Below, piece by piece: positions 14,075 through 18,576 of a stretch of DNA of 64,000 nt. The position numbers and the translations under genes were made by a program. Location of the stretch: contig NZ_AUHN01000005.1 in the NCBI RefSeq assembly GCF_000423205.1, positions 1-64,000 on the forward strand. Reading direction: 5' to 3'. Origin of the DNA: Jonesia quinghaiensis DSM 15701. GTDB taxonomy: Bacteria > Actinomycetota > Actinomycetes > Actinomycetales > Cellulomonadaceae. The number at the start of each line of letters is the position of its first letter. The first letter of the stretch is position 1. The notes beneath the pieces were generated by a model. The model saw only the letters and a list, made by a program, of their open reading frames with translations. It made no database searches and was not told the origin of the DNA.

Positions 14075-15373
14075 TTACTTCGGTGAACGCACGGCAGGCA
14101 ATTGACGAAGGAACCTTGCAATCATAGGTGCCAACTGATCAAACTCAAGAAGAAAACCATCATGCCCGTAGTCAGAATAAATCGTTTCCAACGGTTCTGC
14201 CCCAGGGGCGTGCGCACAAACACGCTGTGACTCACGGGGCAAAAACAGCCGATCAGAATCAACCGCAACCACAAGCATCGGGCAAGAAATAGAACGCAAC
14301 GCCGTGGCGACACCGCCACGGTCACGCCCAATGTCATGGGTCAACATCGCTTGGGTCAAAACCACATAAGAGTTCGCATCAAAACGACGCGCCAACTTGT
14401 CACCGTGGTGATCTAAATACGACTGCACAGCGAAACGCCCACCAAACATGGGGTCCTCAGCATGCTGAGGAATACGACCAAACCTTCGGTCCAATTCGCG
14501 TGCACTGCGGTACGTGGTGTGCGCAATCTGCCGGGCAATACCCAACCCGCGGTGCGGACCAAAACCTGCCGGCTGGTCGTAGTAGTCGCCACCAAAAAAA
14601 TACGGGTCAGCTTCAATAGCAGCGATCTGCGGGTGCGCCCACGCGATCTGGTCACCAGTGGTCTGCGACGACGCCGCAATAACCCCGGCAGCCCCCACAT
14701 CGATACCTGCTTCGGGGCCCATAATTGCCCACTCCAAAGCGCGCAATCCACCCATCGACCCGCCCAAAACAACACGCCACTGCGAAATACCCAACAGCTT
14801 CGTGAGAGCAACCTCTGCAGCAACCTGATCACGAATCGTAATGACCGGGAACTGTGAACCATAAGGCCGCCCATCAGGGGCGGTCGAAGCCGGGCCGGTT
14901 GTTCCCTGACAACCGCCCAACACATTGGGTGCGACCACAAAATACCGGGTCGTGTCGATAGGGGCACCCGGCCCAACCATCGGCTCCCACCACCCAGGCG
15001 CATCCTCTGGAGGTAACCCGTCACGGGAACGCGCTGAAGCCCGAGCCGCAGCAGACGCCGCTACCGCCGGGTCACGGTGATCAACGTTGCGTGTGACATG
15101 AGTGTCACCAGTTAAGGCATGCAACACCAAGATCGCGTTGTCTCCAGCCTCATTCAACGTCCCCCACGTTTGATAGGCGACCGTAACAGAAGGCAAAACA
15201 CCGCCTGCTTCTAATTGCAGGTCCCCGATGTACTCCACCCGCCGTGCCCCCAACTCATCCCCATCACGCCACGCCGCAGTAGCAGCTATATCCTGGGCGC
15301 GCCGCGACGATGGACGCAACGGGTGCGACAGTCGCGTCCACGACGAGGTGGGGGAGGCAGGGATGTTCGTCAT
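14075..15373 (-). CDS. metX: Homoserine O-acetyltransferase
   Basis: A 432-residue alpha/beta-hydrolase-fold enzyme that transfers acetyl from acetyl-CoA to L-homoserine, feeding the sulfhydrylase encoded just upstream. Diagnostic features: VAYQTWGTLN, HALTGDTHV, NVLGGCQGTTGP, and the nucleophile motif GGSMGGLRALEW with Ser206. Asp (AVDSDRLF) and His (DYGHDGFLLE) complete the triad near the C-terminus. The N-terminus is about 40 residues longer than in minimal MetX. It lies 90 nt after metY on the same strand, so both are probably controlled by the leader region upstream of metY. Confidence 0.93.
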   Translation of the reverse strand: MTNIPASPTSSWTRLSHPLRPSSRRAQDIAATAAWRDGDELGARRVEYIGDLQLEAGGVLPSVTVAYQTWGTLNEAGDNAILVLHALTGDTHVTRNVDHRDPAVAASAAARASARSRDGLPPEDAPGWWEPMVGPGAPIDTTRYFVVAPNVLGGCQGTTGPASTAPDGRPYGSQFPVITIRDQVAAEVALTKLLGISQWRVVLGGSMGGLRALEWAIMGPEAGIDVGAAGVIAASSQTTGDQIAWAHPQIAAIEADPYFFGGDYYDQPAGFGPHRGLGIARQIAHTTYRSARELDRRFGRIPQHAEDPMFGGRFAVQSYLDHHGDKLARRFDANSYVVLTQAMLTHDIGRDRGGVATALRSISCPMLVVAVDSDRLFLPRESQRVCAHAPGAEPLETIYSDYGHDGFLLEFDQLAPMIARFLRQLPAVRSPK

Positions 15374-15463: not shown

Positions 15464-16774
15464 TTACAGTGCCGCAAACCCAAGGTCAAGGTCAGCGAGA
15501 ATGTCGTCGATGTGCTCAATCCCTACTGAGAGGCGAACCAACCCAGGAGTGATACCGGCTTGGGCAAGTTCTGCCTCGTTGAGTTGGGAGTGAGTTGTTG
15601 ATGCTGGGTGGATAACCAAAGACCGCACATCACCAATGTTTGCCACGTTGGAGTGGAGTTTCAGCGCGGACACAAACGCTTGCCCAGCCTCAGCGCCACC
15701 ACCAAGATCAAACGCAACGATCGCACCGGCGCCCTTCGGGGCGTACTTCACGGCGCGTTCGTGCCACGGTGAGGATTCCAAACCGGCGTAGTGAATGGCA
15801 GTGACCTCAGGGCGTTGCTCCAACCAGCGGGCAACTTTCTCCGCGTTTTCTACGTGCCGCTCAACCCGTAGCGACAGTGTTTCCAACCCTTGAGCGATCA
15901 AGAATGCGTTGAACGGGGAAATAGCAGCACCCATGTCACGCAGAAGTTGCACACGCGCTTTAAGAATGAACGCAAGGTTCGCGCCCAGCATCCCACCCAC
16001 ACCCAAGTCACGTGCGTACACCAGCCCGTTGTAGGTGGGATCTGGCTGGTTGTAGTTCGCGAACCGTTCCGGGTGTTTCGCGAAGTCGAAGTTCCCGGAG
16101 TCCACGATGACGCCACCAATCGCTGACCCGTGACCGCCCAGGTACTTGGTTGCGGAGTGAATAACGATGTCCGCACCCCACTCAAATGGGCGCAGCAGGT
16201 ACGGGGTGGCTACCGTGTTGTCGATCAGGAGTGGCACACCAGCCTCGTGGGCGGTGGCGGCAACGCTTTCAATATCGAGAATGTCTGCCTGCGGGTTAGG
16301 GATAGATTCTGCGAAGAACAACTTCGTGTTGTCTTTGACGGCAGCAGCCCACTGGCCCATGTCATGCGGGTCATTCACAAAGGTCACCTCAACCCCCAGC
16401 TTGCGGAGCGTGTGAGCCAGCAGGTTGTAGGTCCCTCCGTACAGGGACGGGGAGGCAACAAGGTGGTCCCCAGCTTCAGCGATATTGAGAATCGCCAACG
16501 TTGTTGCTGCCTGACCTGATGCAACAAGTAGCGCCCCAACACCGCCCTCAAGCGAAGCGATACGGTCCTCAACAGCGGTCTGCGTGGGGTTCCCGATGCG
16601 GGTGTAGATCGGGCCGAGATCTTTGAGCGCAAAACGATCCGCAGCGACCTCAGCGCTAGGAAACACGAACGATGTTGTCTGGTAGATAGGAAGTGCGCGG
16701 GCACCGGTTTGCTCGTCAGGGGTTTGCCCAACGTGGATTTGGCGGGTTTCGAAAGACCATGAATTTTCTGACAT
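15464..16774 (-). CDS. metY: O-acetylhomoserine sulfhydrylase (PLP enzyme)
   Basis: A 436-residue Cys/Met-metabolism PLP enzyme that makes homocysteine from O-acetylhomoserine and sulfide. Diagnostic parts: FETRQIHVGQTPDEQTGARA at the N-terminus, YTRIGNPT, SLYGGTYNLL, and the PLP lysine in HSATKYLGGHGSAIGG. The length and the roughly 50-residue insert relative to MetB/MetC point to MetY. The frame is open to 16897, but the ATG at 16774 has AGGAG at a good distance and gives the standard N-terminus. It leads a metY-metX operon. A predicted MTKRMCC leader peptide and two hairpins lie upstream. Confidence 0.92.
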   Translation of the reverse strand: MSENSWSFETRQIHVGQTPDEQTGARALPIYQTTSFVFPSAEVAADRFALKDLGPIYTRIGNPTQTAVEDRIASLEGGVGALLVASGQAATTLAILNIAEAGDHLVASPSLYGGTYNLLAHTLRKLGVEVTFVNDPHDMGQWAAAVKDNTKLFFAESIPNPQADILDIESVAATAHEAGVPLLIDNTVATPYLLRPFEWGADIVIHSATKYLGGHGSAIGGVIVDSGNFDFAKHPERFANYNQPDPTYNGLVYARDLGVGGMLGANLAFILKARVQLLRDMGAAISPFNAFLIAQGLETLSLRVERHVENAEKVARWLEQRPEVTAIHYAGLESSPWHERAVKYAPKGAGAIVAFDLGGGAEAGQAFVSALKLHSNVANIGDVRSLVIHPASTTHSQLNEAELAQAGITPGLVRLSVGIEHIDDILADLDLGFAAL

Positions 16775-16940
16775 GGAGAGCTCCTGAAGTGTGGGACTGG
16801 CTTGGTGTGCAGGTAAGGAGCGCTGGTTCACCGGAATGCGATGTCCACGGTGAACTCTCCGCAGCGATGCGGAGGCCGTGAGGCAGGCGGGGAGCACAAG
16901 AGGACGGCGAAGGAGGTGGCCGCAGCGCTGATGGGGCTGC
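16775..16940 (-). promoter_or_regulatory. Structured 5' leader of metY with two tandem hairpins
   Basis: Between the leader ORF and metY two perfect hairpins follow one another. The first is CTCCGCA/TGCGGAG with a 4-nt loop (16857-16874); the second is GTTCACCG/CGGTGAAC with a 14-nt loop (16826-16855). They could be the switching elements of an attenuator. The region does not match a SAM riboswitch core well enough to call one. The rest of the gap up to the next gene start (16965-17130) holds only candidate promoters. Confidence 0.45.
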
Positions 16941-16964
16941 TCAACAACACATTCGCTTGGTCAT
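16941..16964 (-). CDS. Predicted leader peptide MTKRMCC (translation-sensing attenuator)
   Basis: Eight codons on the minus strand, ATG ACC AAG CGA ATG TGT TGT TGA, read MTKRMCC and stop. The ORF lies 166 nt upstream of metY, which makes homocysteine. Met-Cys-Cys directly before the stop is what a ribosome-stalling sensor of sulphur amino acids would look like. Short Cys-rich leader ORFs before sulphur genes are known in other actinobacteria (general knowledge). No independent evidence of translation exists here, and a chance ORF of this length is possible. Confidence 0.5.
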   Translation of the reverse strand: MTKRMCC

Positions 16965-17130
16965 GAGATAACCATGGCACGGTTGCGTGACGCTGAGAAG
17001 ATCACGCTGGGTAAGTTCTCATGTTCTGGACGCACCACTGTGAGCGAAACTGCCAACAGCAAATACGTGAGAACTCCCCATAGTGTGGGTAGGCTTGTGG
17101 GAGATCTCCCCATCCTGCAGGAAGACCATC

Positions 17131-18576
17131 ATGATGACAGCCCGCCAGCCGCACCACCGACGAGCAGGGATTATTACAGCCCTCGTCATCGCCCTGACAG
17201 TGCCCCTCGCGCAACCCGCCATAGCTGACCCCGAGGACACCGACACAGACAGTGCCGTGTCACAGCGGGCACGCAACGTCGCTGAACTCGATGTAGAGAT
17301 CGCCCAACTTGAACAAAGCGTTGACTCCGCCTACACCGCCGTCATCGCCGCTGGAGAAGACTACCTCCAAGCCGAAGAGGCATACCGCGAACTCCAAGAA
17401 TTCGCCGACACCGCTCGTGCAACGGCAGACGACGCCCACGACCGCGCAGCAGAATCACGAGTGTTCGTCGCCCGCCTCGCCCGAGAATCCAGTCGCTCCA
17501 GTTACGCCCTCGACGGGCTCAGCGCACTACTCACCGCAGATGGTCTTGACCAAGCAATCACCGAAACAAACGCCATCTCAGCCGTGTCCAGCAAAGCCGA
17601 CCAGCGCATCCAACAATTCCAAGCAGACAAAGTCGTCGCAGAAGTCCTCGAACGAGCAGCATCCGACGCAGCCGAACAAGCCCGCAATAAACGGGACGAA
17701 GCATCGGCGGCAATGCAAAACACTCAACTCCTCCAAACACAAGCAGAAGCCCAAGCAGCCGAAGCGCAAACACAACGCTCAGCACTCCTTGAAGAACTAG
17801 CTCAAGCCCGGCAAACCTCCATAGCCGAAGAACAAGAACGCCAAGAACGACTCGCACAAGAACGCCAAGAACGCGAAGAAGAAGCAGCCCGCGAACGCAT
17901 CCGCCAACAAGAAGAAGACGAAGAAGACGGCGTCACCGTTGGCGAAGTGCCCCGCGAAAACGACAACAACCCCGACCCTGCGCCAGCACCAACCAGCACC
18001 CCTGACCCTGCACCCCAACCCACCCGCACACCTGCCCCAGACCCAGAACCAACCCGAACCACCGCCCCAGCCCCAACGCCTACGCGGACCCCAACACCGA
18101 CACCCACGCCAACCCCCACTCGCACCCCAACCCCCACACCTGACCCAGAACCAGCACCCGCTCCACCAAGCTCCGACCTGGGCAAAGGCATATCCGTTGG
18201 ATCCGCGGCGCAAGGACGCAATGCCGTCGCAGCAGCAAAAAAACGCATCGGGAAGGGCTACCAACTTGGCGCAGCAGGACCAAACCTCTTCGACTGCTCC
18301 GGGCTAACCTCCGTGGCATGGAGTGAAGCTGGCGTTTCCATCACCCGAACATCGCGCTCGCAGTACCAGCGCGTAAAAAAGATCAACCTCAACTCTATGC
18401 GGGCCGGCGATCTCCTCTTTTGGGGAAGTGACACCTCAAACCCATCGAGCATTTACCACGTTGCGATGTACATCGGAAACGGTCAAATGATTGAAGCCGC
18501 GCGCCCAGGCATTCCCGTAAAAATCACCTCAGTGCGATGGGACTCCCAACTCTTCCCCTACGCGGGACGCCCCTGA
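17131..18576 (+). CDS. Secreted NlpC/P60 peptidoglycan endopeptidase
   Basis: About 481 residues. A signal peptide (basic start, then IITALVIALTVPLAQPAIA) is followed by a long coiled coil (about 35-275, rich in Ala, Gln, Glu and Arg), an about 80-residue Pro/Thr-rich linker of PTPT and PDPEP repeats, and a C-terminal NlpC/P60 domain. The catalytic Cys is in LFDCSGLTSVAW and the His in YHVAMYIGNG. The layout is that of RipA-like hydrolases, which cut D-Glu-mDAP or equivalent stem-peptide bonds during cell separation; the coiled coil probably keeps the enzyme inactive until activated. The frame is open to 17083, but the tandem ATGs at 17131/17134 follow AGGAAG. A TAGGCT box at 17090 may be the -10. 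Confidence 0.88.
   Translation: MMTARQPHHRRAGIITALVIALTVPLAQPAIADPEDTDTDSAVSQRARNVAELDVEIAQLEQSVDSAYTAVIAAGEDYLQAEEAYRELQEFADTARATADDAHDRAAESRVFVARLARESSRSSYALDGLSALLTADGLDQAITETNAISAVSSKADQRIQQFQADKVVAEVLERAASDAAEQARNKRDEASAAMQNTQLLQTQAEAQAAEAQTQRSALLEELAQARQTSIAEEQERQERLAQERQEREEEAARERIRQQEEDEEDGVTVGEVPRENDNNPDPAPAPTSTPDPAPQPTRTPAPDPEPTRTTAPAPTPTRTPTPTPTPTPTRTPTPTPDPEPAPAPPSSDLGKGISVGSAAQGRNAVAAAKKRIGKGYQLGAAGPNLFDCSGLTSVAWSEAGVSITRTSRSQYQRVKKINLNSMRAGDLLFWGSDTSNPSSIYHVAMYIGNGQMIEAARPGIPVKITSVRWDSQLFPYAGRP
17965..18170 (+). repeat. Low-complexity CCNACN repeat coding a Pro/Thr linker
   Basis: The DNA is a run of CCA/CCC/ACC-type codons giving alternating Pro, Thr, Asp, Glu and Arg in the endopeptidase linker. 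Such tracts slip easily and often differ in length between strains. Confidence 0.75.

Follow-up and report, generated by a model that had tools for sequence, protein, structure and literature searches.

A short Arg-Met-Cys reading frame conserved upstream of metY: a candidate leaderless attenuator of sulphur amino acid supply in Jonesia quinghaiensis and its relatives

The window analyzed here, a 64-kb stretch of the Jonesia quinghaiensis genome, carries on its minus strand a gene for a PLP-dependent enzyme of Cys/Met metabolism (Pfam Cys_Met_Meta_PP, E value of 2.3e-132). The family was assigned by Pfam, and we take the product to be the O-acetylhomoserine sulfhydrylase MetY. The next gene downstream encodes an alpha/beta hydrolase (Pfam Abhydrolase_1, E value of 3.6e-14) and, judging by its context and by general knowledge, is presumably metX, coding for homoserine O-acetyltransferase. 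The region upstream of metY contains a short open reading frame (ORF), here referred to as the leader, and several further elements:

14075..15373 (-), probable metX, next gene downstream of metY
15464..16774 (-), metY
16781..16785 (-), Shine-Dalgarno (SD) sequence AGGAG of metY, from the sequence
16826..16855 (-), perfect 8-bp hairpin GTTCACCG-14 nt-CGGTGAAC, taken from the preliminary description and seen in the letters
16857..16874 (-), perfect 7-bp hairpin CTCCGCA-TCGC-TGCGGAG, of the same origin and likewise seen in the letters
16923..16940 (-), possible hairpin after the leader stop codon, GCAGC/GCTGC, seen in the sequence
16941..16964 (-), leader ORF ATG ACC AAG CGA ATG TGT TGT TGA (MTKRMCC*), from the sequence and family conservation
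16971..16976 (-), candidate -10 element CATGGT, 6 nt 5' of the leader ATG, placed by its position in relatives

A preliminary description of the window had drawn attention to an MTKRMCC ORF located 166 nt before metY and proposed that it acts as an attenuator. The ORF is indeed present on the minus strand (16964..16941), and the distance between its stop codon and the metY ATG at 16774 is 166 nt. Within the 64 kb, its pattern is found a single time, a match with up to two mismatches was obtained in 5 of 100 shuffles, and the core CGAATGTGYNGYTGA is matched exactly at a single place in the genome. Upstream of it, an operator-like stretch, GTCCAGAACATGAGAACTT, was read by eye at 17013-17031 (-), approximately 50 to 60 nt 5' of the leader ATG; in some relatives, the stretch at this distance reads GTCTCGCATCGCGAGAC, an inverted repeat. 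This conserved upstream stretch is perhaps a transcription factor site.

Absence of the ORF from close relatives would have spoken against the preliminary proposal; instead, a leader of the form M-x(2-3)-R-M-C-x-stop precedes metY at 106 of 112 assessable family loci. These loci leave out G042, where metY lies at a contig edge, and eight genomes without a close metY (G001, G014, G037, G047, G053, G067, G086, and G115). At five of them (G024, G061, G060, G085, and G113), the leader was seen and is counted in the 106, while the locus was not parsed and does not contribute to the 117 leaders analyzed below; in G061, the leader stands before a fragment of metY where the contig ends. The figure of 106 relies on a looser reading than the strict pattern ATG-N6-CGN-ATG-TGY-NGY-TRA, which was found in 81 of 121 family genomes at 82 places, the reversed-pattern control being found in none. 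Of these places, 76 belong to metY, namely, 72 from the parsed set and the leaders of G060, G085, G113, and G061. The remaining six comprise four at metX in genomes that have no metY ortholog, an inverted copy in G068, and an unrelated match in G045. The leader is absent at six family metY loci (G004, G021, G029, G045, G083, and G102). The sequence CGAATGTG was not found in the stretches fetched for these six genomes, which yielded one bare CGAATG, in G004; in G021, G083, and G102, inspection by eye placed a TAnnnT motif 6 to 7 nt upstream of the metY gene, as would result from deletion of the leader. When 21 named loci were examined, those bearing the leader belonged to two Cellulomonas, an Actinotalea, Sanguibacter, and Demequina, the rest being without the form or carrying variants. 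The inverted copy in G068 (L136, G068:C12:520855) is a second leader lying 1.2 kb off, by eye beside the apparent end of an NlpC/P60 gene. The first 100 letters of the locus from Sanguibacter suarezii (L233) and of the family genome G081 are identical.

The form of the leader was examined in 117 metY leaders, 101 from the family and 16 from other families. Most comprise seven to eight codons, of which codons 2, 3, and 7 vary. The CGA codon and the ATG at codon 5 are present in 117 of 117, and the following codon is TGY in 116 (TGT 74, TGC 42, and TTC 1), so that the third-base variation of the Cys codon for which the preliminary description had suggested looking does exist. The Met-Cys-Cys form emphasized there is, however, not what is kept: codon 7 is free (CGC 75, TGC 15, AGC 12, TGT 9, and others 6) and encodes Cys in 24 of 117 leaders, and the conserved unit is Arg-Met-Cys. 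One of the 117 is Cys-less (MARRMRMFS in G107), and outside this set, Cys was missing from MTRRMRS (L075) and MFRRMPS (L252), both of which keep CGA-ATG.

A TAnnnT motif lies 6 to 8 nt 5' of the leader ATG in 113 of 117 leaders, compared with 2.3% of shuffles. It is missing in the window genome (G000), G017, G012, and G015; the first two and G015 have a CAnnnT-like sequence and G012 shows no fit. The candidate -10 element of the window, CATGGT, is an inexact fit to TAnnnT. Since the promoter spacing in relatives places the start of the transcript at the leader ATG, the leader mRNA is probably leaderless, and a transcription start downstream of 16941, named in the preliminary description as evidence that would count against it, is unlikely. 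The reading frame is conserved as well. Parsing of the family loci accepted in-frame ORFs only; in a separate test free of that restriction, each of the 96 family cases found had 6, 9, or 15 nt between the promoter-placed ATG and CGAATGTG, none being out of frame. In a sample of the order, searched with a pattern allowing 6 to 9 nt, the spacing was 6 or 9 nt at 25 of 25 metY places, and the sole out-of-frame place (7 nt, in G187) is not at metY. Judged by promoter spacing and frame, the leader is probably translated, and selection acts on the ORF, which stays in frame whether it precedes metY or metX. It is more than a chance occurrence.

Two readings in which the peptide-coding sequence senses nothing were weighed against these data. 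Overlap with a promoter or operator alone could account for conservation, the ORF being a by-product, and the -10 region and the upstream operator-like palindrome are conserved too; yet the conserved core begins at the ATG and extends downstream of the inferred start, length changes occur only in frame, and separate copies exist at metX, which makes this reading scarcely credible. Ribosome loading or re-initiation that helps metY translation, a role hypothesized for leader genes in the available excerpt of PMC4833913, is also very improbable given that leader and metY are separated by 111 to 241 nt (101 parsed family leaders), that metY has its own SD sequence in the window, and that conservation of R-M-C would then be needless.

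In the relatives, the RNA following the leader offers conserved complementarity. Segment 1, CGAAUGUGY, spans codons R-M-C and is complementary to GCACGUUCG directly after the stop codon, with which it can form helix 1:2; the mean z over 117 leaders was -3.4, and in 68 of 117, no more than 3 of 60 shuffles attained the observed helix length. Segment 2 (GCGCACG) has an exact 7-nt complement downstream, segment 3, in 70 of 98 anchored leaders compared with 3.7 expected; for the variant segment GCGCACC, a matching complement was found in only 1 of 8. In a register test of helix 2:3 on 96 leaders, the value was 0.69 at the right offset; it fell to 0.18 one base on and did not exceed 0.07 at any of the other 22 offsets. 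Leaders without an anchor numbered 21 of 117 in the register test and 19 of 117 in the exact-complement test. It should be noted that only exact-complement tests revealed helix 2:3, which did not exceed shuffles when scored by whole-region duplex energy (mean z of -0.37). In an alignment of 31 of the 117 leaders (A1), 1:2 pairs were present in 99.3% and 2:3 pairs in 95.4% of cells, values that are favorable because the leaders were hand-chosen and that include three leaders with a misaligned segment 3; slid versions gave 5 to 67% and 0.5 to 85%, the high values reflecting the repetitive pattern. Two-sided changes in A1 numbered zero in both helices, and re-dealt 3' letters reached the observed pairing in 82 of 500 shuffles for 1:2 and in 500 of 500 for 2:3; segment 1 is coding and almost fixed. 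A GCACACG/CGTGTGC pair in genus g8, considered as compensatory, was rejected, as the fixed alignment shows no two-sided change and the pair looks like a register slip. RNAalifold run on the 31 chosen leaders returned helix 1:2 together with a 3:4 hairpin (CGUGcGC with GCCGCG) and one two-sided change, and GCCGCG lies within 45 nt after GTGCGC in 37 of the 83 leaders holding GTGCGC. Conservation, rather than covariation, thus points to a putative four-segment attenuator layout in which 1:2 plus 3:4 alternates with 2:3.

The nucleotide-level constraint seen at CGA (117 of 117) could also mean that the ORF is mainly an RNA element, with CGAAUGUG...CACGUUCG bound by a metabolite, protein, or sRNA and translation incidental. 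CGAATG outlasts the loss of the Cys codon and, by eye, stays at locus L098 without the ORF frame. We nevertheless consider such an element improbable. The spacing is in frame only and codons 2, 3, and 7 vary, the ORF survives in the window genome and near genera, from which much of the RNA pairing has disappeared, and a search of the window and ten family loci at the Rfam gathering score revealed no family, SAM-IV (RF00634) included.

The window's own leader departs from this layout. The two perfect hairpins of the preliminary description exist (16874-16857 and 16855-16826) and are not conserved parts: neither is present in G017, the sole congener, and perfect stems of at least 7 bp (loop of 3 to 15) occur in 30 of 117 leaders, which is the chance level (28.9 expected by shuffle). 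Four of six genomes of genus g19 (G019, G039, G055, and G081) contain a perfect 6- to 7-bp hairpin of other stem sequence 62 to 100 nt after the stop codon; the stem letters vary and the loop is GAACG- or GGACG-like. This hairpin may be a counterpart of the first hairpin (16857-16874). A folding switch, as previously suggested for the window's leader, is unsupported there, segments 2 and 3 being unrecognizable and the predicted fold ordinary (z of -0.68; 51 of 200 shuffles at least as good). In the predicted fold, AGCGCTG (16923-16929) can alternatively pair with CAGCGCT at 16819-16825, and 16923-16940 together with 16819-16825 is a possible substitute switch. Because the RNA segments have diverged in the window genome, the ORF and its likely start are the best-supported parts of the model there.

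Collectively, these data lead us to favor, with moderate confidence, a ribosome-mediated attenuator of sulphur amino acid supply on a leaderless transcript starting at the leader ATG. From the conserved features we infer translation and stalling, the residue sensed, the ON/OFF sense, and the output step. The metY(-metX) transcript would begin at the leader ATG, and the leader ORF would be translated first. With plentiful charged tRNA, the ribosome would complete the ORF and leave, helix 1:2 would form, and segment 3 would be available to Rho or to an OFF structure. A shortage of Cys-tRNA (or, less likely, of Met-tRNA) would hold the ribosome at codon 6 (or 5), where it would mask segment 1, whereupon segment 2 could pair with the downstream CGUGCGC (helix 2:3) and metY-metX would be expressed. 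Given the usual size of a ribosome footprint, a ribosome with Cys6 in its A site would cover segment 1, its edge lying just before segment 2.

The sensed residue might instead be Met, with the ribosome waiting at Met5 when elongator Met-tRNA is short. Codon 5 is ATG in every leader, more constant than Cys and kept in the Cys-less variants seen, the pathway product homocysteine serves methionine, and the Streptomyces lividans metNIQ leader MSTTSDRTPATEATTTPGARCMCRRMCAF is interpreted as methionine-dependent in the available excerpt of PMC8079986. However, CGAAUG is possibly fixed by its pairing with CGUUCG, and therefore the constancy of ATG need not mean sensing; moreover, Cys6 is kept in 116 of 117 metY leaders and in both metX copies of genus g21. 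A shortage of Met also lowers initiation on the leader itself, which counts against sensing of this residue, and we regard Met as rather unlikely and Cys as the better candidate.

As for the output step, no intrinsic terminator with a U-tract was found in 16600-17200 of the window, and at least 5 T in 8 nt occur in only 9 of 117 leaders. Predicted masking of the SD sequence did not depend on ribosome position, the mean accessibility being 0.465 with the ribosome stalled, 0.462 free, and 0.436 at the stop codon (n = 101). The leaders contain 46% C and 29% G (43% and 22% in the window's own leader), compared with 35% and 30% in the 60 nt upstream. The lack of a U-tract terminator, the few T-rich stretches, the missing mean effect on the SD sequence, and the excess of C over G make involvement of Rho a reasonable guess.

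Polycysteine leaderless short ORFs of mycobacteria were reportedly described by Canestrari in 2020. According to the available excerpts of PMC4633059, PMC9094748, PMC9031893, and PMC13236596, mycobacteria possess attenuation systems with Cys-rich leaderless ORFs, the first of these papers (Shell 2015) dealing with polycysteine leaderless ORFs of cysA2 and others. As far as the excerpts go, these ORFs and the metY leader are alike in carrying Cys near the stop codon; the former are leaderless and open the transcript of a sulphur operon, as the metY leader probably does, and a ribosome slowed at Cys is the proposed sensor there, as it is here. In contrast to them, the metY leader usually has one Cys, a fixed R-M-C, an invariant CGA-ATG, metY or metX as its target, and a predicted 1:2/2:3 switch in place of ribosome binding site masking. 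Because a contiguous Cys run is missing in most leaders (that of the window has two Cys), the metY leader lies outside the polycysteine class, and it may be a variant of the mycobacterial leaderless cysteine attenuators, with Cys as the presumed residue sensed.

Seliverstov 2005 (PMC1262725), in its accessible portion, describes Cys leader peptides of the cys operon or cbs in Mycobacterium, P. acnes, and B. longum. These resemble the metY leader as actinobacterial Cys ORFs without terminator hairpins, for which Rho was suggested, and differ from it by runs of Cys codons near the stop and by other target genes; the same portion reports conserved RNA structures upstream of methionine operons to be absent. 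The metL leader of S. lividans metNIQ, as excerpted from PMC8079986, is leaderless, as the metY leader probably is, precedes a sulphur gene, and contains CRRMC, but it has 29 codons and belongs to a transporter operon. A link by pattern to this CRRMC leader was tried and dropped, CMCRRMCA occurring in 0 of 20 genomes of genus g101 (likely Streptomyces). Unlike trp-type attenuators, the metY leader has no U-tract terminator in 16600-17200, whereas the relatives have a conserved in-frame ORF (R-M-C) and 1:2 and 2:3 complementarity, without two-sided covariation, which may correspond to the translated leader and the mutually exclusive helices of that type. Titles and the starts of abstracts in the literature searched yielded no published description of the metY leader. 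As a candidate sensor of sulphur amino acids, it is very short, hardly varies, and lends itself to easy testing.

The leader follows the pathway, being found at metY or metX. In genus g15, four genomes that have no metY ortholog show it approximately 77 nt before a metX-like gene, so called by its likeness to the probable metX of the window, and two g21 genomes carry leaders before both metY and metX, MTRRMCW and MTRRMCP, in which codon 7 differs and R-M-C is kept. Genomes with separate metY and metX leaders constitute an internal control. In the order sample (149 genomes, 11 of the own family), the leaderless pattern was found at 32 places, 25 of which lie, by coordinates, just 5' of metY: 9 in the family and 16 in f3, f9, f12, f13, and f20. 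Strict patterns locate the leader in six families of this sample (f1, f3, f9, f12, f13, and f20), and at metY loci of non-family members it is present in 16 of 113. At locus L098 (f16), where CGAATG persists and the ORF frame is lost, a GTG-started ORF in another frame apparently overlaps the metY start as ATGA (by eye).

In other families of the order, the same site before metY is occupied by the SAM-IV riboswitch (RF00634), which is an aptamer RNA, unlike a translated leader. Among the SAM-IV matches listed (45 places, on metY contigs), at least 43 of the 113 non-family metY loci have SAM-IV within 500 nt, 16 have the leader, sought by the leaderless pattern only, none has both under these criteria, and 54 have neither. 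Rfam found SAM-IV in 16 of 17 single loci examined, with L081 having it only after metY. The window genome has a SAM-IV element at G000:C7:138863-138980, away from metY. At three loci of f15 (L082, L086, and L097), an SD-led ORF with R-M-C lies between SAM-IV and metY, and this ORF reads MTCRMCR in L082 and L086; L241 and L271 resemble this tandem by the core motif only. Cys-less ORFs after SAM-IV are MTCRMPF (L094) and the GTG-started V-T-C-R-M-R-R (L095) and V-N-H-H-R-M-R-R (L168). We tentatively suggest, as a possibility we hold at less than even weight, that the seven-codon sensor and SAM-IV swap at metY in evolution, sampled families carrying either of them, and that the tandem M-T-C-R-M-C-R cases represent a two-input gate. 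If this were true, reading of the sensor ORF in the tandem would be under the control of the aptamer. That the same gene is served by a riboswitch or by a ribosome-read ORF amounts to a natural experiment.

In a sample of the class (394 genomes), the strict pattern was found in 17 genomes, namely, the window genome, 14 of f19, and two others. In f19 (L180-L193), an MCCRMC[R/S/C] ORF stands before a gene with an OmpR-type DNA-binding (winged-helix) motif, identified by Pfam in one example, at 13 of 14 loci, the fourteenth contig ending too early. This f19 regulator is perhaps controlled by a similar leader.
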